From the NCBI GenBank assembly GCA_947461105.1, contig CANHIG010000009.1, positions 1 to 35,826 on the forward strand: a stretch of DNA of 35,826 bases, in the 5' to 3' direction. The translations under genes and the position numbers were made by a program. Below the pieces are notes generated by a model that saw only the letters and a program-made list of their open reading frames with translations, made no database searches and was not told the origin of the DNA. Positions 1,679-35,043 of this stretch are shown in pieces; position 1 is the stretch's first letter, and each line of letters begins with the position of its first letter. The DNA comes from Bacteroidota bacterium. GTDB lineage: Bacteria; Bacteroidota; Bacteroidia; Chitinophagales; LD1.

Positions 1679-2650
1679 CTAATCTGCTGCAGCGTCTTGG
1701 TCTTTAGAAGACTTGTGATAATAGATTGCTGCATTAATTTCATAACCTATGAGCAGCACGTATGCATTAATATTAAGCCAAATCAATATCACCATTATTG
1801 TTCCGATAGAACCAAATAGTGTATTAAGTTTCATGAAATTTTGGAGATAGTATGAAAATCCTATCGAAGCAAAAATGGATAATATAGTAGCAACTGTTGC
1901 CCCGGTTGATATAAAGCGGTATTTCTTCTTGGTTGCGGGACCGTAGTAGTATATCAATGAAATAGAGAAAAAGAAAAGCAATACTATGGTGGAATACCTG
2001 ACAATATTGAACAAGATATTTATGAATACATCCTTTATTTTCAATAGATGTAATATGAACTGCAAAATATCTTGACCTGCTACAATCAAAACAATTGAAA
2101 AAGTAAACAACATAACAATGAGCATGGTGATTTTCAATGCTACAACTCTGGTTTGCAGCGCATTTCTTTTCCGGTAATGTGTGTATGATTTATCGAATGA
2201 GCTCATCATGGCCACTACTCCGTTTGAAGTGAGAAATAAGGTCATGATAAATGTACTCGTCAAAAGACTTGGTCTTCTGTTTCGGGTTAAATCGCGGAGC
2301 AACGGCTCAATAAAAGATTTAAGAAATTTAAAAATCTCCGGGCTGGGCGATACATCCTTTATCAGCTTCAAAACATAAATATCTAGATCCGGGAAATTAA
2401 TAATTGCCAGCGCATAAGGAATAAGTGTAAAAATAAACACTAACGCTGGAAACAGAGAGAGAAAAAAACTATACGCAATGGATTTGGAACGGGTTGCCAA
2501 AGAATTAGTTTTCATTTCATTTAAAAAAAACTGAGCAACTCTGAACACCGGCACACCATCCAAACCCGGCAACGTAAACTCGCGAAGCCATTTATCCCAT
2601 TTCTCTAAATGCGGATTTTCAACCAATATTTTTTGCCAAAGCTTTTTCAA
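1679..2650 (-). CDS. YihY/BrkB family inner-membrane protein
   Basis: The 323-residue product is an integral membrane protein of the YihY/BrkB (UPF0761) family, once mislabelled ribonuclease BN. After a cytoplasmic N-terminal segment of about 60 residues comes the family hallmark block (TRSKSIAYSFFLSLFPALVFIFTLIPYAL, written here only as a landmark region around residues 54-82). About five more hydrophobic segments follow, including FVILLFFFSISLIYYYGPATKKK near 225-250 and the closing GTIMVILIWLNINAYVLLIGYEINA around 285-310. Length is normal for the family. Its start overlaps the stop of the upstream thioesterase gene by 4 bp (ATGA), so the two are translationally coupled. Biochemical function is not established for the family, though transport or envelope roles have been suggested. 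Confidence 0.9.
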   Translation of the reverse strand: MKKLWQKILVENPHLEKWDKWLREFTLPGLDGVPVFRVAQFFLNEMKTNSLATRSKSIAYSFFLSLFPALVFIFTLIPYALAIINFPDLDIYVLKLIKDVSPSPEIFKFLKSFIEPLLRDLTRNRRPSLLTSTFIMTLFLTSNGVVAMMSSFDKSYTHYRKRNALQTRVVALKITMLIVMLFTFSIVLIVAGQDILQFILHLLKIKDVFINILFNIVRYSTIVLLFFFSISLIYYYGPATKKKYRFISTGATVATILSIFASIGFSYYLQNFMKLNTLFGSIGTIMVILIWLNINAYVLLIGYEINAAIYYHKSSKDQDAAAD

Positions 2651-3057
2651 GATAATTTTTCTTTAATACCGGCTATCAAATACTGTGGTGCTCTTGCCAT
2701 TTTAATAGTATCAGCATGAACAAATGCCAGGCGTGTCTCCGCTTCACATAATTTATCGTTTTGTTCATTTTCGACTATATACTTAAAAACAATAAATCGG
2801 TCAGGGAGTTCATTGATTTGAACCTTAATAAATATCAACTCATCATATAGCGCAGCCTTTGAATACTTTACTGTAAAATTGGTAACAGGCATCATAATGC
2901 CTTCCTTTTCCATTTTTGCATAAGAAATACCTAATGACCTGAGCGCTTCTGTTCTTGCTATTTCAAAATACCGGGCATAGTTACCATAATAAACATAACC
3001 CATCTGATCTGTATCAGCGTAGGCTACCCGAATGGTATGAATATACTCCATCATCAT
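2647..3057 (-). CDS. Acyl-CoA thioesterase, YbgC/4-hydroxybenzoyl-CoA thioesterase (hotdog) family
   Basis: The 136-residue product has the single hotdog fold of YbgC-like thioesterases. The active-site motif Y-A-D-T-D-Q-M-G-Y-V-Y-Y-G-N-Y is at residues 13-27, with the catalytic Asp in ADTD, and it is followed by RYFEIARTEALRSLG. Such enzymes hydrolyse acyl-CoA or acyl-ACP thioesters in the cytoplasm; the substrate here cannot be told. Three consecutive ATG codons (3057, 3054, 3051) make the exact start uncertain. The start overlaps the mltG stop by 4 bp and the stop overlaps the YihY gene start by 4 bp, giving a tight three-gene operon. In proteobacteria ybgC goes with tol-pal, but no tol gene is present here. 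Confidence 0.9.
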   Translation of the reverse strand: MMMEYIHTIRVAYADTDQMGYVYYGNYARYFEIARTEALRSLGISYAKMEKEGIMMPVTNFTVKYSKAALYDELIFIKVQINELPDRFIVFKYIVENEQNDKLCEAETRLAFVHADTIKMARAPQYLIAGIKEKLS

Positions 3058-4076
3058 TTTATATTTCTTAAATCTAATTGTTTCCGATATAAAGCAGCTA
3101 CCCTATTCTGTTCATTCAACGTCTTTGAAAAAACCGACCTGCCACTCATATCAGGACTGGCACAAAAATATAAATAGCCGTTTGTATCTGCATTCAGCAC
3201 TGCTTCAATTGATTTTTTACGAGGCAAACAAATTGGGCCGGGAATAAGACCTTTGTATTTGTATGTATTGTATGATGAATCAAAACTTTTGTGATAATTG
3301 GTAACTCTCCTTGCATCAAGATCGCCTGCTGCAAATTTAAGTGTCGGGTCTGCCTGAAGCGGCATACCTATTCGCAAACGATTAAGATACACTCCTGCTA
3401 TTTTATCCAGTTCATTTTCACGCATACATTCCTTTTCTACTATAGAAGCCAGAATTGTGGCTTTTGTGGGAGTCAGCCCCCATGATGCCGCTTTGGATTT
3501 CCTGTCTTCGTTCCAGAAATCATGATATGCCATATCAAATTCTTCAAACATGGCATCAACAGATACATTCCAAAAGAATTCATAGTCGTTATAAATAAAG
3601 TGCGTGAGAATATTCTCCGTATTGCATCCATATCCCACACAAAACGTTTCACTGTTTAAACTATCTAAAATACTCACCGAATCCAGCTCTAATGTCCTGC
3701 CAAGCAAGCCGGAGAAATCTGATTTCGTTTGAACGTTATACAGATTTAACTTCACTTTATTTTGCAGCCCTGCCATGAGCATATTCACAATCTCGCGGTT
3801 AGACATTGTGCGTGAAAAAATATAACGCCCCGGTTTTACATTTTTGTCATAACCTTTCAATTTAGCAATCAGCTCAAAAGTCTCATAGTTGAGCAACATC
3901 TTCTTCTTGTGAAGTGTGGCTAATACTGTTTTGAAATCAGAGCCTGTTGGGATATTGGCATAATAAGAAGTTCTGTCAGCATTGATATTATTGGATTGAA
4001 ACAGCTGATAAAAGACAAACAAAGCAACTGACAACAAAAGAACAAAAACTAAAATCAATATTTTTCGCATAGGCAA
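3054..4076 (-). CDS. mltG: Endolytic murein transglycosylase MltG
   Basis: The 340-residue product is a membrane-anchored YceG-like lytic transglycosylase that cuts nascent glycan strands and so limits their length. It has one N-terminal membrane helix (about residues 5-25), then a LysM-like region, then the catalytic domain. The ASIVEKE motif places the catalytic Glu at residue 214. The other conserved blocks are GVYLNRLRIGMPLQADPT (about 228-245), YNTYKYKGLIPGPI (about 269-282) and the substrate-end block starting at about 287. Length is usual. The start could be Met1 or Met3. It is first in an overlapping operon with the thioesterase and YihY genes. It is preceded by the perfect terminator palindrome that follows aceA, so it probably has its own promoter between 4077 and 4101, although I see no clear box. 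Confidence 0.95.
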   Translation of the reverse strand: MPMRKILILVFVLLLSVALFVFYQLFQSNNINADRTSYYANIPTGSDFKTVLATLHKKKMLLNYETFELIAKLKGYDKNVKPGRYIFSRTMSNREIVNMLMAGLQNKVKLNLYNVQTKSDFSGLLGRTLELDSVSILDSLNSETFCVGYGCNTENILTHFIYNDYEFFWNVSVDAMFEEFDMAYHDFWNEDRKSKAASWGLTPTKATILASIVEKECMRENELDKIAGVYLNRLRIGMPLQADPTLKFAAGDLDARRVTNYHKSFDSSYNTYKYKGLIPGPICLPRKKSIEAVLNADTNGYLYFCASPDMSGRSVFSKTLNEQNRVAALYRKQLDLRNIK

Positions 4077-4101
4077 TGAAATCTTCTATTGGCTAAAAAT
4101 A

Positions 4102-4130
4102 TAAATCCCAACCAATTTGGTTGGGATTTA
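4102..4130 (-). terminator. Terminator of aceBA
   Basis: A perfect palindrome has 14-bp arms around one central base (TAAATCCCAACCAA-T-TTGGTTGGGATTTA), followed on the minus strand by TATTTTT. It sits 25 bp past the aceA stop codon and separates the glyoxylate operon from mltG. Confidence 0.85.
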
Positions 4131-4154
4131 TGTGTATTTAAACGAAAATTATAA

Positions 4155-5435
4155 TCAATGGAACTGTTCTGCTTCTGTAGAACCAGCAAGTGCTGTAGTA
4201 GAAGACTGCCCTTGTTGTACCACATTTTGTACTGCATCAAAATATCCTGTTCCCACGAACGACTGATGTTTGATAGCTTTGAAACCAGCCGGTTCAAGAG
4301 CAAATTCTCTTTGTTGCAATTCAGAAAATCCTGCCATTCCTCTTTCTACATAAGCTTTAGAAAGTTCAAACATTGAAGTGTTCAATGCATGGAAACCGGC
4401 TAATGTGATGAATTGGAATTTGTAACCCATAGCAGCCAATTCTTCACGGAACGTAAGCATTTGCTTCTCGTCCATAAACTTAGCCCAGTTGAAAGATGGA
4501 GAGCAGTTGTATGCCAACATTTTTCCCGGGAATTTAGCATGTATTGCTTGTGCAAATTCTCTTGCAAGACCTAAATCAGGATTTCCGGTTTCCATCCAAA
4601 TCAAATCTGCATAAGATGCATAGCTCAGACCTCTGTCTATACCTTGCTCCAAACCATTCTTCACATAATAGTATCCTTCTGCAGTTCTTTGACCCGTGAT
4701 GAATTTAGTATCACGAGGGTCAATATCAGCTGTGATTAAGTTTGCTGCTTCAGCATCTGTACGGGCAATTACCAATGTAGAAACACCCATAGAGTCAGCC
4801 GCTAAACGTGCAGCTACTAATTTATTGATCGCTTCCTGAGTAGGTACCAAAACCTTACCTCCTAAGTGACCACACTTCTTAGCAGAAGCCAATTGGTCTT
4901 CCCAATGCACACCTGCAGCACCAGCTTCAATCATACCTTTCATCAATTCAAAAGCATTCAGATTTCCGCCAAATCCTGCTTCTGCATCTGCTACGATAGG
5001 CACTAACCACTCTCTGGTTACATTGCCTTCCATAAATTCAATCTGGTCTCTTCTCAAAAGCGCATTGTTGATTCTTTTTACAACTGATGGAACAGAGTTT
5101 GCAGGATACAAAGATTGATCAGGATACATTTCACCTGCAAGATTTGCATCTGCAGCTACCTGCCAGCCTGATAAATAAATTGCCTTCATACCAGCTGTAA
5201 CTTCCTGCACTGCTTGGTTTCCGGTCATTGCTCCAAGACCAGCTACCCAATCTTCAGAAGTCAATCTTTTCCAAAGTTTTTCTGCACCTAATTTAGCGAT
5301 GGTGTATTCAATTTGATATGAACCGCTAATGTTTACTACTTCTTCAGCAGTGTATGGGCGAGTAATACCGCTCCATCTTAGGTTTTCAGCCCAATCTTTT
5401 TTTAGTGCGTCAATGCGCTCTTGTCTTGTTGCCAT
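4155..5435 (-). CDS. aceA: Isocitrate lyase
   Basis: The 426-residue enzyme cleaves isocitrate to succinate and glyoxylate, the first step of the glyoxylate shunt that allows growth on acetate or fatty acids. The catalytic loop K-K-C-G-H-L-G-G-K is present with the active-site Cys at residue 188. Mg/substrate-binding blocks such as [10 protein letters not shown] (148-157) and [10 protein letters not shown] are intact, and the C-terminus is normal. Length matches the short (about 430 residue) bacterial form. It is 44 bp downstream of aceB, same strand, with an A-rich leader (AAAAAAAATAAAA just before the ATG) and no Shine-Dalgarno. It is closed by the strong terminator at 4102-4130. Confidence 0.98.
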
Positions 5436-5479: not shown

Positions 5480-7072
5480 TTAGTCTATCTTATTATAGGC
5501 TGGAAGCGTCAAAAACTCCACATAATCGCCTTGTTGCACCAGCTTATCAAACATCTCAATGGCTTCATTAAATCTGCCATTTGCGAAAGCTGTTTCGCCA
5601 ACATAAGCTTTGATATTCTCAATCTCTGAAGGGAAAAGTCCTTTAACCAAATCATAGGTTATCGTTCTTCCATCGTCTAGTTTGCTTCCTTTATTAATCC
5701 ATTGCCAAACCTGAGTTCTTGAAATTTCAGCAGTAGCAGCATCTTCCATAAGATTATGCAATGCAGCCGCACCAACTCCTCTCAGCCATGATTCGATGTA
5801 AAGAATTCCAATATTGATGTTCATTCTCAAGCCAGCTTCGGTGATTGTTCCTTCACATGGAGTAAGAAAGTCCTTAGCGGTGAAAACATCTTCTGCTCTG
5901 CTTACATGATAGTTGTTTGGAGTAGGCATATATTCATTGAAAATATCCATTGCCAAACCTACCAAACCAGGATGCGCCACCCAGGTTCCGTCATGACCAT
6001 TTTGCACTTCTCGCAGTTTATCTTGCTTTACCTTTTCAATAGCCGCATTGTTTGCAGCTTCGTTATTTTTTATTGGAATGAAAGCCGCCATTCCGCCCAT
6101 TGCGTGTACTTTGCGCTTATGACAAGCCTGAATCACCGCTTTTGAGTACGAAGCCATAAATGGCACAGCCATGGTTACCTGAGCTCTGTCAGGCAACACA
6201 TAGCCTTCCAAATTTTTCAACTTCTTGATATAAGAGAAAATATAATCCCAACGGCCGCAGTTGAGTCCTGCCATGTGATTGCGGAGTTCGTAAATAATTT
6301 CGTTCAACTCGAATGTTGCTAAAATAGTTTCAATCAGTACTGTTGCTTTGATAGTTTGCTGTGGAATTCCTAGTTCGTTTTGCGCATAAACAAACACATC
6401 GTTCCAAAGTCTTGCTTCTAAATGCGATTCCAATTTTGGAAGATAGAAATAAGGTCCAGTGCCGTTTTGAATTAGTTGCTTAGCATTATGAAAAAAGTAA
6501 AGACCAAAATCAAACAATGAGCCACTCATGATTTCTCCATCCACCAAAACATGTTTCTCTTCCAAATGCCATCCACGAGGACGAACCAAAAGCGTAGCTA
6601 CTTTGTCATTTAGTTTGTATGACTTACCGTTTTCAGGATTAGAATATGAAATAGTTTTATTGATAGCATCGCGCAGATTGATTTGCCCTTCCACACAGTT
6701 TGCCCAGGTTGGTGCATTTGAATCTTCAAAGTCTGCCATGAATACTTTAGCACCGGAATTCAATGCATTAATTATCATTTTGCGATCAACCGGTCCGGTA
6801 ATTTCCACTCTCCTATCTTGCAAATCTGCCGGAATCGGAGCGGCAGTCCAGTCGCCTTCTCTAATTTCCTTAGTTTCCGGAAGGAAATCAGGTAATTTGC
6901 CGCCATCAATTTCTTTTTGACGCAACTCACGAGCATGTAGCAACTCTATCCTCCTTGAATTAAATTTCTTGTGTAAGGGAATGATGAAGTTCAGCGCATC
7001 TTCGGTAAGTATTGCATTGTAACCCTCAGCTATGTTTCCTTTAATTTCCAGTGAAGATTTTGTAACTGACAT
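5480..7072 (-). CDS. aceB: Malate synthase A
   Basis: The 530-residue enzyme condenses glyoxylate with acetyl-CoA to give malate, the second step of the glyoxylate shunt. Recognisable family blocks are GPVDRKMIINALNSGAKVFM (about 93-112), DFEDSNAPTW (114-123), the RPRGWH loop with the catalytic Arg at about 166, the malate synthase signature around AGLNCGRWDYIFSY (about 267), and the late ESWLRGVGAAALHNLMEDAATAE region. Length is typical of the A isoform. It is the first gene of aceB-aceA. Its promoter and candidate operators occupy the gap shared with the divergent regulator gene. Confidence 0.98.
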   Translation of the reverse strand: MSVTKSSLEIKGNIAEGYNAILTEDALNFIIPLHKKFNSRRIELLHARELRQKEIDGGKLPDFLPETKEIREGDWTAAPIPADLQDRRVEITGPVDRKMIINALNSGAKVFMADFEDSNAPTWANCVEGQINLRDAINKTISYSNPENGKSYKLNDKVATLLVRPRGWHLEEKHVLVDGEIMSGSLFDFGLYFFHNAKQLIQNGTGPYFYLPKLESHLEARLWNDVFVYAQNELGIPQQTIKATVLIETILATFELNEIIYELRNHMAGLNCGRWDYIFSYIKKLKNLEGYVLPDRAQVTMAVPFMASYSKAVIQACHKRKVHAMGGMAAFIPIKNNEAANNAAIEKVKQDKLREVQNGHDGTWVAHPGLVGLAMDIFNEYMPTPNNYHVSRAEDVFTAKDFLTPCEGTITEAGLRMNINIGILYIESWLRGVGAAALHNLMEDAATAEISRTQVWQWINKGSKLDDGRTITYDLVKGLFPSEIENIKAYVGETAFANGRFNEAIEMFDKLVQQGDYVEFLTLPAYNKID

Positions 7073-26330: not shown

Positions 26331-29219
26331 CTAAACATACTCCTCCACACTCGGACAAGTACAAATTAGATTTCTATCGCCATGTGAATTGTTTACACGT
26401 GCTACACTTGGCCAGAATTTACCATGCTTCACATAAGGCAACGGATAAGCCGCAACAGCCTTGGTATAGCCATGATGCCACTCTTCTGCCATCAACATAC
26501 CTTCGGTGTGTGGTGCATTTTTCAATGGATTATCTGTAGCATCTATTTCTTTATTCTGTATTTGAAGGATTTCCTTTTTGATTTGAATCAGCGCATCACA
26601 GAATCTATCAAGCTCAGCTTTGTCTTCACTCTCGGTTGGCTCAATCATGAGTGTCCCTGCCACAGGAAAAGAAACTGTAGGTGCATGAAAACCATAATCC
26701 ATCAAACGTTTTGCCACATCTTCCACCTCTACTCCAACTGTATGTTTGAACTGGCGGAAATCTAAAATCAACTCATGCGCAACACTTCCATTATCTCCCG
26801 TATATAAAACACTGAACTCTTCTGCAAGTCTTGCTTTCATGTAATTGGCATTCAGAATAGCAAATTTAGTAGCATCTGTAAGCCCGCTTGCTCCAAGCAT
26901 CTTGATATAGCCATAGGAAATGAGCAATATACTCGCACTGCCCCATGGAGCAGATGAAATAGCCGTAATGGCTTTGTCTCCTCCTGTTTTCGTTACAGGA
27001 TTTGATGGAAGATAAGGCGCTAAATGTTTTGCTACACAAATCGGCCCCATTCCCGGACCACCACCACCATGAGGAATGGCAAAGGTTTTATGCAGGTTAA
27101 TGTGATTCACATCAGCCCCAATAAAGCCAGGACCAGTAAGCCCTACCTGAGCATTGAGGTTAGCACCATCCATGTATACTTGTCCGCCATGTGAGTGAAT
27201 CAATTCACATACTTGCTTGATATTCGTTTCAAAAACACCATGTGTAGAGGGATAAGTTACCATAAGGCAGGAGAGATTTTCGTGATGCTCTTCCGTCTTT
27301 TTTACTAAGTCATCAAAATCAATATTTCCTTTTGCATCAGTAGCTACAACAACAACTTTAAGTCCACACATAACAGCAGTTGCAGGATTGGTTCCGTGAG
27401 CTGATGCAGGAATCAAAGCCACATCGCGATGTCCCTGACCAATATCTTTTTGATAAGCACGAATCACCTGAATCCCTGCATACTCACCTTGTGCGCCTGA
27501 ATTTGGCTGTAATGAAGTAGCATAAAATCCTGTAATTTCTGAAAGCGCATGTTCCAGCTCATTGATAATTTGTACATAACCCGCCGCCTGATCGAGCGGA
27601 ACAAAGGGATGTATATTGGCAAATTCCGCCCAGCTAACCGGCTCCAATTCAGCAGCAGCATTAAGCTTCATAGTGCATGACCCCAAGGCAATCATTGATT
27701 TGGTAAGCGACAAATCTTTGTTCTCTAAAGACTTGATGTAACGCATCATTTGCGATTCTGAATGATGGGTGTTGAATACAGGATGAGAAAGATATGCAGA
27801 TTTCCTTTGCAGGTTTTCTGGAAAATTGTAAGATATATCAGCAGATTCATAAACTGCCGTAAAATTTATCTTTACCCCTTTTGCTTGAGCGAAAATATTG
27901 GCAAGAGCAGCAACATCATCAGGTGAAGTAGTTTCGTCTAGTGAAATACTGATAAAATTATCACAACTATAAAAGAAGTTTACCTGATTTGCCAAAGCAA
28001 TCTCCTGTACTTTTTTCAGTAAATCTTTATCGCCTTTTGTATCCACAGTAATGGTGTCAAAAAAGTATTTATTATGAAGTGTGTATCCAATTTTAGCAAT
28101 TTCATTTGCGAGCACCTGAGTATTGACATGAATACGAGTAGCAATATTTTTCAACCCCTGTGCACCATGATAAGCCGCATACATTCCTGCCATGATTGAA
28201 AGTAAAGCCTGAGCAGTACATATATTTGAAGTTGCTTTTTCTCTTCTGATGTGCTGTTCGCGAGTTTGCAGAGCCATACGCAATGCAGGTTTCCCCTCGG
28301 CATCAATAGACACTCCGATTATTCTTCCAGGAATAATTCGTTTAAAATCATCCTTGGTTGAAAAGAATGCCGCATGAGGACCTCCAAATCCCATCGGTAC
28401 ACCAAATCGCTGCGAATTTCCTACCACACAATCAGCTCCAAATTCACCAGGAGGAGTAAGTAACGTAAGTGACATTAAATCAGCCGCTACTGTTACATAA
28501 CATTCCTGAGCATGACATTTCTCGATGAATGCCGTGTAATCTAAAACTTGCCCGTCATAAGCCGGATATTGCAACAATGCTCCGAAGAAATCATTAGTAA
28601 TATCAACTGTATTATAATCGCCCACTACCACTTCAATTCCGAGAATGGAAGCACGAGTGTGAATCACATCAATGGTTTGTGGAAGACAAAGATTAGAAAC
28701 AAAGAACTTATTATACTCAAACCCCTTTTTGTTTTTTACGCCCAAAAACATACTCATAGCCTCTGCAGCTGCAGTGCCTTCATCCAACAAAGAAGCATTT
28801 GCAATTGGCAATCCTGTAAGATCAGTAATCATAGTCTGAAAATTCAGCAATGCTTCTAGTCTCCCTTGCGCAATCTCTGCCTGATAAGGCGTGTACTGAG
28901 TGTACCAACCCGGATTTTCAAAAATATTTCTGCGGATTACGGCAGGAGTAATAGTGCCATAATAACCAAGCCCTATATAGCTTTTAAAAACTTTATTTTT
29001 AGAGGCTGTTCCCTTCAGTTGTTTCAAATACTCATATTCCGACAATGCATCAGGTAGATTTAGTTTTGAAGGGCGAAGAATTGAATCCGGCACTGTTTTA
29101 TGAATAAGCTCATCTATAGTCTTGACACCTACCTTTTGCAACATCTGTTGCAGACTATCGTTATCAATTCCAATGTGGCGGCTTGTAAAATTATCTGTCG
29201 AGCGAAGTGAAATAGACAT
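26331..29219 (-). CDS. gcvP: Glycine dehydrogenase (decarboxylating), P protein of the glycine cleavage system
   Basis: The 962-residue PLP enzyme decarboxylates glycine and passes aminomethyl to the lipoyl H protein. It is the full-length, single-chain form: the N-terminal half ([32 protein letters not shown], about 85-115) and the C-terminal half carrying the PLP lysine in [19 protein letters not shown] (Lys near residue 710). The C-terminal block [30 protein letters not shown] is also present. gcvT and gcvH are not in the window, as is common in Bacteroidota. No glycine riboswitch was recognised in the 200 bp upstream. Confidence 0.98.
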
Positions 29220-29417: not shown

Positions 29418-30071
29418 ATGAAAAAAATCCTTTTTGCATTTTCTATAATACTTTCTTTCAGTGCTGTTGCTCAGGAAGAAAAGAAAGTTGTTCAGTTCTC
29501 AGGTTTTGTAATGACATCTGACTCGCTACAAGGTGTTCCTTACACTCACATCACCATTAGAAACAGAGGACGAGTGGCCACAGCAGGCGCAGATGGTTTT
29601 TTCAGCTTTGCTGCGCAAGAAGGAGACACGCTTTACTTTACTTGTATTGGGTTCAAACCATCGGTTTACATTCTGCCACAAACACTCGAAAAGGATAAAT
29701 ATTCAGTGATTCAGCTTATGTCCAGAACTGAATACTATCTTAAAGGAACAATTATTTATCCCTGGGGCGATAAAGATGGTTTTAAAAGAGCCTTTCGAGA
29801 TTTAAAGCTGCCAAAAGACGATTTGCAACGAGCAGAAGAAAATATGGATCCACAGATGCTGGCTGCTTTGGCGCAACAGTTACAGCCAAGCGGTGGAGAG
29901 GCAAGCTCAAGAGCGTTGCGCACATCTGCTTATCAAAAATCATACTGGGGACAATCTCCTCCAAACAACTTACTGAATCCTTTTGCTTGGTATGATTTAT
30001 ACAAATCCATCAAAAGAGGGGATTTAAAGATCAAATCAAAATCAGATTTACCCCCTTTGAAAGATTATTAA
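29418..30071 (+). CDS. Secreted carboxypeptidase-regulatory-like domain protein
   Basis: The 217-residue product has a signal peptide (MKKILFAFSIILSFSAVAQ) followed by one carboxypeptidase D regulatory-like beta sandwich (FSGFVMTSDSLQGVPYTHITIRNRGRVATAGADGFFSFAAQEGDTLYFTCIGF is the region, about residues 30-85). Such domains also occur at the N-terminus of TonB-dependent receptors, but no receptor follows here. The second half has the conserved block TIIYPWGDKDGFKRAFRDLKLP (about 133-154) and a proline-rich end. It is a common stand-alone periplasmic or outer-membrane-associated protein in Bacteroidota whose function is unknown to me. The ATG at 29418 is chosen because it directly begins the signal peptide. 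Confidence 0.85.
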   Translation: MKKILFAFSIILSFSAVAQEEKKVVQFSGFVMTSDSLQGVPYTHITIRNRGRVATAGADGFFSFAAQEGDTLYFTCIGFKPSVYILPQTLEKDKYSVIQLMSRTEYYLKGTIIYPWGDKDGFKRAFRDLKLPKDDLQRAEENMDPQMLAALAQQLQPSGGEASSRALRTSAYQKSYWGQSPPNNLLNPFAWYDLYKSIKRGDLKIKSKSDLPPLKDY

Positions 30072-30220: not shown

Positions 30221-30231
30221 TCTCAATAGTA

Positions 30232-30335
30232 TTAGTCATTAATGTTGGCTTTTTTTGTCATTATGAACGAAGTCTTCGAAGTGAAGAATCTAAAGAATAT
30301 GCTTCTCCGCCTTTGGCGGATCAGCATGACAAAAA
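30232..30335. repeat. Palindromic miniature element, copy B
   Basis: The core has perfect 10-bp terminal inverted repeats TTTTTGTCAT (30252-30261) and ATGACAAAAA (30326-30335). Its interior carries GAACGAAGTCTTCGAAGTGAAGAATCT, the reverse complement of the copy A interior, plus a hairpin CCGCCTTTGGCGG absent from copy A. Similarity to copy A continues past the inner repeat to TTAGTCATTAA at 30232. The element is non-coding and lies between a plus-strand gene and the terminator of minus-strand genes. Confidence 0.7.
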
Positions 30336-30385: not shown

Positions 30386-30418
30386 AAAAATCCCTGCCAC
30401 AATTGTGACAGGGATTTA
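30386..30418 (-). terminator. Terminator downstream of the phosphoribosyltransferase and T9SS-tail remnant
   Basis: The arms AAATCCCTG-CCACAATTGTGAC-CAGGGATTT form a long, nearly perfect hairpin. On the minus strand it is followed by TTTTAG. It sits 25 bp after the last codon of the orphan sorting tail. Confidence 0.8.
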
Positions 30419-30441: not shown

Positions 30442-30627
30442 CTATCTATAGATTACCAGACGTTGAACTAAAGTGGTATCATTCATAATGAATTTCACCA
30501 TGTATGTTCCCTGTGCAAAGTCTTTGACAGATTTAGTATGTGTTCCTTCCTCCAATTTGCTCACATCTACCAACTGACCATTTGATGCATAAATCTCTAC
30601 TATTGCATCAGTGTATTCAACAGAGGC
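30442..30627 (-). pseudogene. Orphan T9SS type-A C-terminal sorting tail
   Basis: 61 codons and a TAG stop directly follow the phosphoribosyltransferase TAA stop, in the same frame and with no start codon of their own at the junction. The peptide ASVEYTDAIVEIYASNGQLV...KSVKDFAQGTYMVKFIMND...QRLVIYR has the alternating beta pattern and closing strand of type-A T9SS sorting domains, but lacks the usual leading YPNP turn. It looks like the 3' end of a lost secreted-protein gene. It retains its own terminator. Fusion by read-through is possible but unlikely to be functional, since the upstream protein has no signal peptide. Confidence 0.65.
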
Positions 30628-31128
30628 TTAAGTGAGATAGGCGCTAAACTTCGCCTTTTCTAACTTTACCAGTATTTGCTCTTTCAAAGTAGTGGATAAA
30701 GACAACCCAACAAAATCAGAGGCAACGGGGAATTGCTTGTGAAGTCTATCTATCAATACTGCCACCTGAACCTTTTTGGGAGAGAACTTCAAAATCGGGG
30801 CTAATGCATAAAACATTGTTTTCCCTGTATTGGCTACATCATCCACAAAAAGGATATTTTTTTTATCAAGCGAAAGTCCTTTCAAATCAAGCCCAATTTT
30901 TGCATCCGAAGGATTAAGCTTATCTAAATCAATCGAAAAGAGATTAATACTAATTTTAGAAATGGCTTCTATCTCCCGCTTTAATACTTCTGCAAAAACA
31001 AAGCCTGTAGGCTGTATCCCAATCATCACCATTTCCTTTTCATCAAAATTATGCTCAACAATTTGATATGCTATTCGCTTTGTTTTCTGCATAATGGCAG
31101 CATGATCGAGTATTAAATTCTGTTTCAT
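30628..31128 (-). CDS. PyrR-like phosphoribosyltransferase
   Basis: The 166-residue cytoplasmic type I phosphoribosyltransferase has the PRPP loop NILFVDDVANTGKT (91-104), GIQPTGFVFAEVLKREIE (37-54) and the PyrR-like flexible region VAVLIDRLHKQFPVASDFVG (122-141). The family includes PyrR (uracil salvage and pyrimidine attenuation) and hypoxanthine/uracil salvage enzymes. Which activity applies here is unclear, and no pyr genes or attenuator are nearby. I chose the ATG at 31128. The frame stays open to 31179, but a consensus -7 box (31163-31156) lies between the two starts and relatives begin M-K-x-N-L-I-L. It is 60 bp downstream of the S8 protease gene on the same strand. Confidence 0.82.
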   Translation of the reverse strand: MKQNLILDHAAIMQKTKRIAYQIVEHNFDEKEMVMIGIQPTGFVFAEVLKREIEAISKISINLFSIDLDKLNPSDAKIGLDLKGLSLDKKNILFVDDVANTGKTMFYALAPILKFSPKKVQVAVLIDRLHKQFPVASDFVGLSLSTTLKEQILVKLEKAKFSAYLT

Positions 31129-31188: not shown

Positions 31189-34100
31189 TCATTTCTCCAC
31201 GCATAATTTTTTAATGGCAATTTTCCTGCCGTTTTCTTCCAAAGAAACCATATAAACTCCTGAATTCAAAAGCCTGTTTTCATAACGAAATTCAGATATA
31301 CCCTTTTTAAGTTCTATAACATCAGATAATCGTCCCAAATTGTCTAATATCTTAATTGAAAGTTCTTCATTAGTTCTAAGATTAATCCTGAAAATGCTGT
31401 AATCTTTAAATGGATTAGGATATATATCAAAATAGCTTGTCGTTTCCTTTGCCTCATTAATGCCGGTAGGTGTTGAAAAATGAATTACAAATCTATCCCA
31501 AGTGTCTGAGGTGCTTGCTGTGAATGAATAAACAGGATTTACTTTCAAGTTAATCCATGGCGCTGCAGTTTTCCTGTCTTCAAGATAAATCTTAGTTAAA
31601 ACCGGAAATGTATTTAATTGATCGAATGTTAACTTATAGTTGCCGCTTGTACCCGGCTCAAAACCTAATGATACTGAATCATTAAGAGTTTTAGTAAGCA
31701 AAGTATTAATAGCCATGTGCTGATTACCACTCAGCGTGTAGAGTGAAGGCTGTCCTAGTTTACTGTGAAATTTATTGGCATCATACAGGGAATCAAAAAC
31801 ATCTGTAGCACCCTGACTGTAATAAATCTTTGTTTTATCTGCAAAACCGTTTCCACTTAAAGTAATATGCATCTCATAATCATTACCCAGCTTATAAAAT
31901 GGTGTCAGGATTGCGGGATTACTGACACACTCGCTCCGCGACACCGAAAAAGTACCAGAACCTGGACTGTGCTTTTTCACCCAAAATGCCTGAAAAGGAG
32001 GGAATACAGCATCTTCACTCATCATTACAGGCTGGAAAGTTCCGGCATAAGTTCCTGTTGTCTGCCAAATCTGAGCTTGTGCATCAAAACCTGATTTAGT
32101 TTGAAGTTGCAGGTATGAAAGATATGGATTACCCACAAGATTCCATCCGGAACTATACGGACGCCCTTGTAGTGAGTTATGAGTAGACCATGCTGAATTG
32201 CTCACACCTGTCAATGAATAATTATATCCCTGATTGGCGAATCCTGTAAGTGAAAAAGATTGATTGCCATTTAGGTATGCCGCATAGCCTTTAAATACAT
32301 TAAAACTATCAGTAGTTATTGATTCCCACCCTCCAAGTGCACAACCGGAAGCCTGCGATTCATCATAACTAAAAAGCGTTCCCTTTGGAGAACCTAAAAC
32401 ACTCTGGGTTTCATCACAATTGGCAGTATGCGAAACAAAGCCCGGAATACCCGTAGCGCTGATTTGAGCAACATCAGGATTTAAAACAGGGGAACTGATT
32501 AAATGTATATTGCCACCGGAAAGCGGCACCCAGCGTTCTGCTATCACATCACCGACAATTGAGCCTGCATTGCCGGCTGTAAAATCAATTGTTGCGCAAT
32601 GGACAGGAGAAGTACTCAAAAATTTCAATGTGCCGAAGTTTGAGTTCATAATACCCAGCTTGAGCATTAACCTTGAGTTGATTTCAAGATTTCCTGTAAT
32701 AGTAGTATTACTGTTATTGTATAATTGCAGAGAATCTATTCTAAGTTTTCCGGCTACTTTTTGATTTACTGTCCCGTCCAGAAGCAATAAGCCTCCGGAA
32801 ATAATTGATTTAGCCACATTACCTCCGGAAATATCTTTACATATATGCCAGCGGCAATTAGAGTCAATTGTGACTTGTACATTATCAGCTATTCTCACAT
32901 TTCCTGATGTCACATTGGGTATTGAAATCCTTGGTAAATAAGGGGTTCCTGAAGGAATAACCACATTACTGGAACAGCTGTTTGGACCACAACATCCGGT
33001 ATCAGGAGTCCAGTTTAGCGGGTTATTCCAATCTGAGGATATATTTCCGTTCCACACGTTTGAATATGCACAGCCACCAGTATCTACCGTAGCCAAAGGA
33101 TTATAATTCAATGACAGAGGATCTTTGCAACCGTATAAAGGAACTGTAAGTGCCTGAAAGGCATTTAACTTTCCATATCCCCATGATATATTTGGTACTG
33201 TAGTAGTAGTATAAATATCCGTCTTTGCAGTAGTCGCAACCACCTGTTTTATTTCATTGTAATCTGCAAATGGACGTTTTTCCAGATACAGTGCAACCGC
33301 TCCTGCCACAACAGGTGAAGCCATTGAAGTTCCTCCATTCCTCATGTGTTTTCCACCATATCCTACTTTAAGCCTATTGCCGGGCGATAAGAGTAAAGAT
33401 GCTATATCAAAAGAATCTCCGGTGGCAATAATAGTACTGCCTGTTGCAGAAATATCGGGTTTCTGTCTGCCATCGCGAGTAGGCCCCAAACTTGAGTTAG
33501 CTGCAATATTACCTACAAATTCACCTGAACCAATTGCACTCTGATATACGCTGTCCATATCAAGATATGCCGCCTGATTATAATAATTAGCTACAGTAAT
33601 TACCTTATCGGAACATTGCCAACTTGAGACTATTGTCTGCTGGTTATCAGGGAAACGATAATTGGGAGAACTAAATCCGCTTGGCAAAATAGTCAGTATA
33701 TCTGCACTCCCAATAAAAGCGCTATGTGCCCATAAATTAAAGTTTCCGCTACCTTTAGTCTGCAACCTCCAGAGATGTGTTGTATTTACCGGTTTAACCA
33801 AAAACTCAATATGATAGGATGCCCCGACCAATTCTGCATAAACACCGTAATTACAAAGCTTTGTTGCTCCGTTAAAAATTGAGTCATTAAACAAAACACC
33901 ACTTCCCTGAGGCGGATTGAAATCAAGAGGAACATTGTAATACTTTGATCTTCCAAGAAAAGTAGCTGCATTGTTATCACAACCTAAAGCAAAATTTGCA
34001 AGTTTAAATTGTGCAGTATCTGCCCAAAGATCAAAGTAAACATTACTGGTAAAGTTATTATACTTAAACCAAGTGAATAGAGAATCTGTAGCACTTAAGC

Positions 34101-35043
34101 TATATGACAAATGAAAATTTGCGTTGCCAGCGTTACCTCCTGCCGCAACTAATGATCTTCCTTTTTTTGCAGCAATCAGGCTTTCTATAGCCTGCGCATT
34201 CAAGTCTTTACCATCATGAGAACCATAATAAGTACCCAAACTTGTATTTACCACACAGGGCATTCCTAAATCGTCTGCTTTCAAAAAAATATACGATACA
34301 GCATCTGCAACAGACTGCAAAAAGTTAGAAGAATTATAATCTACATTCACCACAACGATGTTTGCATCAGGTGCAACACCTTTATACTTTTTCATGAGCG
34401 TACTATCACTGCTCCAGCTGAGTCCGTTACCCGCTGCAATGCCTGCAACCGTTGTGCCATGTCCCTGATCGCTTAATGGCGGAATATAATTGCAGTTGCC
34501 ACTGTTGATATCAGCTGAGTCCCAGGAAAGTCCTGATACCTGATCCCACATATACTTTATTCTTGTTGTGCCATCAGGATTTTTAAAATCGCCATGATTA
34601 AAAAACATACTTCCATCTATAATACCGACTACTACATTCTTCCCTGTAAATGCTTTGGGTAAAGGCGCATTGCCATTGTGGACCTCATTGATATTATTTC
34701 TGATTCGCGCAGTATCAGCAAAAGACATGCCTTTGGCAAAAGTGTTTTCTATGCGCTCTATAAAAGGCAAATCAGAAAAAGCCACAAGCTCCCGATAAGG
34801 AATTTCAACGGAACAAATTGAGCCTATGTTGTAATTGAACTTCCCTCCTGATTTTATTGCAGCTGTTTTTATTTGCGCTGCATTGCCTTTCACCAGCAAT
34901 GGCATAAGCTCCATACTGTTAGCATATTTGGATTGCTGTAGCTTGCTGTATAAATTTATATCAAGTTTGGTTTTGACTTGGGCGTGTGAGTAGATGCAAA
35001 AACAAACAAAAACAAAGGCCAAAAGAAATCTCATTTTTATCAT
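31189..35043 (-). CDS. Secreted S8 (subtilisin-like) serine protease with T9SS type-A tail
   Basis: The product is about 1284 residues long (numbers below count from the upstream TTG at 35055; the likely start is the ATG at 35043 or 35034). A signal peptide MRFLLAFVFVCFCIYSHAQ is followed by a prodomain-like region (to about 130). The subtilisin domain has Asp147 in VVGIIDGSMF, His199 in GHGTTVAGIAAG and Ser near 576 in GTSMASPVVAG, with a large insertion between His and Ser. Next is a Cys-paired module GCKDPLSLNYNPLATVDTGGC (about 640), then a NWNNPLNW-type beta module with a cluster of Cys, more beta domains, and the sorting tail IYPNPFKDYSIF...SGVYMVSLEENGRKIAIKKL. The catalytic triad appears complete. 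It should be exported by Sec and T9SS and act extracellularly. A -7 box at 35060-35053 rules out the TTG as start. Confidence 0.93.
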   Translation of the reverse strand: MIKMRFLLAFVFVCFCIYSHAQVKTKLDINLYSKLQQSKYANSMELMPLLVKGNAAQIKTAAIKSGGKFNYNIGSICSVEIPYRELVAFSDLPFIERIENTFAKGMSFADTARIRNNINEVHNGNAPLPKAFTGKNVVVGIIDGSMFFNHGDFKNPDGTTRIKYMWDQVSGLSWDSADINSGNCNYIPPLSDQGHGTTVAGIAAGNGLSWSSDSTLMKKYKGVAPDANIVVVNVDYNSSNFLQSVADAVSYIFLKADDLGMPCVVNTSLGTYYGSHDGKDLNAQAIESLIAAKKGRSLVAAGGNAGNANFHLSYSLSATDSLFTWFKYNNFTSNVYFDLWADTAQFKLANFALGCDNNAATFLGRSKYYNVPLDFNPPQGSGVLFNDSIFNGATKLCNYGVYAELVGASYHIEFLVKPVNTTHLWRLQTKGSGNFNLWAHSAFIGSADILTILPSGFSSPNYRFPDNQQTIVSSWQCSDKVITVANYYNQAAYLDMDSVYQSAIGSGEFVGNIAANSSLGPTRDGRQKPDISATGSTIIATGDSFDIASLLLSPGNRLKVGYGGKHMRNGGTSMASPVVAGAVALYLEKRPFADYNEIKQVVATTAKTDIYTTTTVPNISWGYGKLNAFQALTVPLYGCKDPLSLNYNPLATVDTGGCAYSNVWNGNISSDWNNPLNWTPDTGCCGPNSCSSNVVIPSGTPYLPRISIPNVTSGNVRIADNVQVTIDSNCRWHICKDISGGNVAKSIISGGLLLLDGTVNQKVAGKLRIDSLQLYNNSNTTITGNLEINSRLMLKLGIMNSNFGTLKFLSTSPVHCATIDFTAGNAGSIVGDVIAERWVPLSGGNIHLISSPVLNPDVAQISATGIPGFVSHTANCDETQSVLGSPKGTLFSYDESQASGCALGGWESITTDSFNVFKGYAAYLNGNQSFSLTGFANQGYNYSLTGVSNSAWSTHNSLQGRPYSSGWNLVGNPYLSYLQLQTKSGFDAQAQIWQTTGTYAGTFQPVMMSEDAVFPPFQAFWVKKHSPGSGTFSVSRSECVSNPAILTPFYKLGNDYEMHITLSGNGFADKTKIYYSQGATDVFDSLYDANKFHSKLGQPSLYTLSGNQHMAINTLLTKTLNDSVSLGFEPGTSGNYKLTFDQLNTFPVLTKIYLEDRKTAAPWINLKVNPVYSFTASTSDTWDRFVIHFSTPTGINEAKETTSYFDIYPNPFKDYSIFRINLRTNEELSIKILDNLGRLSDVIELKKGISEFRYENRLLNSGVYMVSLEENGRKIAIKKLCVEK

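Follow-up and report, generated by a model that had tools for sequence, protein, structure and literature searches.

An orphan T9SS sorting tail flush behind the stop codon of a PyrR-like phosphoribosyltransferase gene in a Bacteroidota genome

In the 35,826-nt window analysed here, which is the whole of contig 9 of a Bacteroidota assembly, the stop codon of a phosphoribosyltransferase (PRT) gene is followed, with 0 nt in between and in the same frame, by the 3' end of a type-A T9SS sorting domain. This tail is best explained as a 5'-truncated pseudogene that arose by deletion or rearrangement and that is now probably part of the 3'-UTR and terminator of the enzyme gene. The probability of this reading is put at roughly 0.78. 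The enzyme is intact, the sorting domain is truncated, the neighbourhood is ancestral upstream and foreign downstream, and the genus contains a parallel case. The features at the junction are:

30631..31128, minus strand: PRT gene, PyrR/HGPRT-like, complete, 166 codons (PF00156 match, C-termini of relatives)
30628..30630, minus strand: enzyme stop TAA, with the junction here or within a few nt (C-termini of relatives, MAFFT alignment)
30445..30627, minus strand: orphan 3' end of a type-A T9SS sorting domain, 61 codons (TIGR04183 and PF18962 matches, own-genome model)
30442..30444, minus strand: TAG ending the tail (reading frame)
30388..30417, minus strand: intrinsic terminator, 13-pair stem and T run (hairpin search, folding)

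The minus strand of 30442-31128 reads as an ATG, 166 codons, TAA, 61 stop-free codons and TAG. The encoded PRT scores 67.2 bits with PF00156 (cut-off 26.3) and 106.2 bits with the PyrR equivalog NF003549 (cut-off 138), the general PF00156 cut-off being the only one passed; PyrR is its best match among solved structures. On these scores the label "PyrR-like" is right, and "PyrR" itself would go beyond them. The PRT query was matched in 59 of 60 searched genomes, paralogues included. Among the 37 relatives that have the PRT locus, 34 end the protein with [AV]Y[LI]x-stop, the same end as here, and the TAA is thus the native stop of the enzyme. Exceptions are L088 and L090, with differing ends, and L075 (G020:C164), where the PRT gene is interrupted by an in-frame TAA after codon 51. 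A contig-level scan of other genomes with the enzyme gave 5 loci, 2 of them in Chitinophagales MAGs and 0 at the genus level; these relatives make an origin in the Chitinophagales likely.

An earlier note, made from the sequence alone, had read the 61 in-frame codons behind the TAA as a type-A sorting tail without a start codon, followed by a TAG and a terminator. Profile searches bear this out. The tail scores 33.9 bits with TIGR04183 (curated cut-off 23; profile positions 22-71 of 72) and 28.3 bits with PF18962 (cut-off 27; positions 20-75 of 75). Like other members of this domain family, it passes both cut-offs, its match reaches the C-terminus of the frame, and the terminal G-x-Y pattern is kept (GTYMVKF). 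In contrast to them, it lacks the first ~20 profile positions, the PNP stretch among them, and is therefore not a complete domain; a start codon, a signal peptide and a body are missing as well. The first in-frame ATG/GTG/TTG is codon 19. The N-terminal Sec signal peptide expected of T9SS cargo was not seen: the tail has no early start codon, and the N-terminus of the enzyme shows no such signal by eye. MAFFT aligns the very first residue of the tail inside the sorting domain, which places the break within a few bases of the TAA.

A model was built from 31 complete tails of the same genome, cut at the start column of the orphan. It gave the orphan 26.2 bits, against 21.6-52.1 bits for the 31 tails cut at the same column and left out in turn, a comparison that is biased against the orphan, as 30 of the 31 were the best-scoring tails in the genome list. 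Shuffled versions of the tail reached 10.8 bits at best (289 reported of 300 shuffles). The score within the range of complete tails and the stop-free frame leave the fragment without visible decay. The other five frames of the 183-nt tail contain 2 to 8 stops each, and 61 stop-free codons have a chance of 0.8% by a mononucleotide estimate. Placement in frame with the enzyme is by itself a 1-in-3 event. The terminator behind the tail folds with z = -5.6.

The fragment is thus homologous to part of a coding family, with start and body missing. Like bacterial truncated pseudogenes, it is the 3' part of a gene whose family has intact members, and it lies at a synteny junction; unlike them, it shows no visible decay and follows an intact enzyme gene unusually flush and in the same frame. 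The suggestion that nothing but the 3' end of a secreted-protein gene was left when this junction formed is supported by the truncated profile match and the missing body.

Read-through or recoding of the TAA, by which part of the enzyme would be made with the tail and conditionally exported, is very improbable. The reading has in its favour that the tail is in frame, free of stops over 61 codons and intact in its C-terminal signature, and that, according to PMC4804311, GFP was exported in P. gingivalis with no more than the final 22 residues of one such tail. The enzyme, however, shows no signal peptide at its N-terminus when judged by eye, and all T9SS effectors are said in passages of PMC10202324 to carry a Sec signal, prior Sec export being needed. 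In addition, the tail is absent from all 37 relatives, and a parallel tail behind a cyanophycin synthetase gene (CphA) in G001, the single genome of the same genus compared, is out of frame. The remark in the earlier note that one codon change at the stop would fuse enzyme and tail is correct as to the frame, yet the fused protein would lack a Sec signal, again as judged by eye.

The neighbourhood of the junction comprises the following features:

31189..35043, minus strand: S8 peptidase carrying a type-A tail; neighbours the enzyme upstream, an ancestral arrangement (profile match, relatives)
30231..30334, strand not given: repeat in the intergenic space that separates c13 from the tail (six more partial copies in the assembly)
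29418..30071, plus strand: c13, conserved 217-aa protein, convergent (matches in relatives)
26331-29219, minus strand: GcvP, marking the other synteny block together with c13 (matches in G001)

The S8 peptidase gene lies directly upstream of PRT on the same strand in 20 of the 37 relatives (counted from printed maps, with L075 and its interrupted enzyme ORF included), and it adjoins PRT on the other strand in three more (L088, L089 and L092). The S8-PRT order is ancestral, and the protease is an old neighbour that was no partner in forming the tail. Recombination between its tail and another tail had been thought conceivable, both type-A tails lying within 1 kb. This origin is scarcely credible: BLASTP gives no alignment between the S8 tail and the orphan, the S8 tail is whole, and an exchange between tails flanking the enzyme would be expected to remove the enzyme. 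The other proposal, that the enzyme gene replaced the body of the secreted protein, finds no support in the gene order. Enzyme, stop and upstream neighbours are arranged as in the ancestor, and the tail is therefore the newcomer at the locus. The S8 protein (31189-35043) has a C-terminal extension of ~600 aa that is shared over its length with the S8 of G001, and several unrelated T9SS proteins of the family finish with the same module.

Downstream of the enzyme, a same-strand tail within 2.5 kb was found in 0 of the 37 relatives (shorter sequence in L073, L092 and L100). The tails present in L079 and L082 are on the opposite strand and belong to genes whose starts are well past the enzyme. 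The earlier note had named unrelated sequence in relatives as a refuting observation, and this is what the relatives show. A tail ancestral to the locus is refuted by this count, and the interpretation as a remnant is untouched. In 16 of the 37 relatives, the gene behind the enzyme is a converging, shikimate-kinase-like gene that we take from its sequence to be aroK. Between the PRT stop and this gene lie -14 to +8 nt in 14 of the 16, and 72 and 197 nt in the others (197 on a partial enzyme). In G001, a lyase-like gene is located 12 nt behind PRT. c13 and GcvP match contig 19 of G001 (about 81% each) and the G001 PRT is on contig 40. Because the c13-GcvP block and PRT sit on separate contigs there, the gene order indicates that the window holds a synteny junction, with the tail between the c13-GcvP block and the PRT-S8 block. 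An Rfam scan of the window yielded a tRNA at 1270-1357 and nothing else.

Such a junction could also stem from the assembly, if the contig wrongly joined the end of the enzyme gene to a fragment carrying the end of a T9SS gene. We regard this as unlikely, though it deserves some weight. The assembly is metagenome-like (197 contigs, 2.51 Mb, 87.65% complete, 3.12% contamination), the junction is seen in one copy only, G001 has the two blocks flanking the tail segment in separate places, and a dispersed repeat is present at 30231-30334. On the other hand, this repeat is away from the enzyme-tail junction, which is unique in the assembly, and G+C is similar on its two sides. Phylogenetic trees moreover place both flanks in the genus: the N-terminal part of S8 groups with G001 (96/90), as does c13 (100/100). 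The PRT and FeS trees are indecisive; the former places the window loosely, with PRT 65.7% identical to a g4 genome versus 61.8% to G001, and the latter has no starred group for the window. One partial copy of the repeat is located at C9:1552-1612.

The parent gene of the tail was not found, which counts against the remnant reading, as does the lack of visible decay. Matches within the same genome are 27-40% identical, 29 further genomes yielded no parent either, and the range over all of them, own genome included, is just 27-46%; G001 has no match at E <= 0.01. As to the reciprocal junction, a search of this assembly did not find aroK, the gene that usually follows the enzyme. The lyase-like gene that follows PRT in G001 is located here on another contig, after an LplA-like and before a methyltransferase-like gene. 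No truncated T9SS body lies beside it, and the missing body was not located. On visual inspection, no T9SS gene converges on c13 in the c13 neighbourhoods of 14 relatives. G002 has c13, an MnmE-like gene and the enzyme gene as convergent neighbours, which may be due to chance.

T9SS tails are abundant in this genome, with 83 matches at E <= 0.001. TIGR04183 gave 93 rows at E <= 0.1, 81 of which were counted over the cut-off, and the orphan has the shortest open frame (61 aa) among these 81. A second baseline was formed by 59 fetched loci (827,187 bases), chosen around PRT, c13, S8 and two other genes and thus not a random sample; they contain 42 tails of >= 18 bits. Among the 37 of these away from a locus edge, the one in the window alone has an open frame of < 200 aa. 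Tails in short frames were inspected on C139, C1, C34, C12, C72, C5, C92 and C55 of this genome and on C6, C35, C9, C56 (two), C41 and C2 of G001, where scoring covered 150 of 250 candidates. Not included were C29:337 and two frames at contig edges, G000:C2:147 (123 aa) and G001:C62:6-134 (45 aa). C139 and C72 were rejected as orphans, both running off contig ends, and so was C1 (L161, G000:C1, 2877-4045, minus strand), a frameshifted esterase-like gene with the tail in another frame; the frameshift is a pseudogene mutation or a sequence error. In L163 (G000:C12; 2872-3105, reverse complement), a lipoprotein-like start and a stop are followed by a same-frame T9SS tail of 18.9 bits, below the cut-off.

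The closest parallel is found in G001 (L165, G001:C6:279000-287000, 3866-4246). Here, a 300-nt T9SS 3' end begins 2 nt behind the TAG of the cyanophycin synthetase gene, identified by its match to a solved CphA, and a 16-pair hairpin with a T run follows the tail. As in the window, a cytoplasmic enzyme gene, its stop, a tail within 2 nt and a hairpin terminator succeed one another. L165 differs from the window in that its tail is out of frame, contains a complete sorting domain and has a near-identical source in the next gene, a complete T9SS gene 1,708 nt further on whose 3' end (5579-5878) matches it with 97% identity. The third case (L166, G001:C35:40000-45000, 2336-2809, minus strand) is a T9SS 3' fragment, its type-A tail intact, that continues the frame of a TonB-receptor-like gene behind the two stops of that gene. 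Stranded T9SS gene ends behind other genes hence number at least 3 in the two genomes, 2 of them in frame. This proportion is within chance, and, given the out-of-frame case in G001, the frame of such scars looks accidental. No description of orphan T9SS tails was found in the literature, judged by titles and opening parts of abstracts.

There are many T9SS cargo genes, and their bodies may often be dispensable. A former gene for a T9SS-secreted protein on the same strand would have lost its body, the 3' end and probably the terminator staying behind, through a deletion or rearrangement that brought the middle of the sorting domain up against the end of the PRT gene. Breaks that spare the upstream enzyme would survive, and the near-zero ancestral gap would force a surviving break close to the stop; this would account for the place of the junction, as the ancestral site has hardly any intergenic space at that point. 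Two cases with a break within about 3 nt of a stop are a counterpoint to this, being tighter than random unless spacing is short. The stop and terminator of the remnant itself may have eased its retention. We infer that events took this order, that the enzyme is translated normally and halts at its native TAA, and that the tail is transcribed without useful translation, probably serving the S8-PRT transcription unit at the RNA level as 3'-UTR and terminator.

The junction is most likely a real, neat and ordinary scar, not a new protein fusion. It is a concrete example of how a sorting tail can end up beside an unrelated enzyme, and the genus has at least two more such cases, one with the source still adjacent. 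For annotators it is a warning that an in-frame T9SS match behind a stop is not the same as a fusion. A single case changes little, and a new activity is not implied. A more general process, in which housekeeping genes of the genus recurrently gain the 3' end and terminator of T9SS cargo genes flush behind their stops, the tails acting as a dispersed source of 3'-UTRs, is a doubtful, long-odds proposition. The parallel cases in the genus turn it into a question that can be answered by counting, and, if it were true, in-frame tails would be export tags one mutation away.
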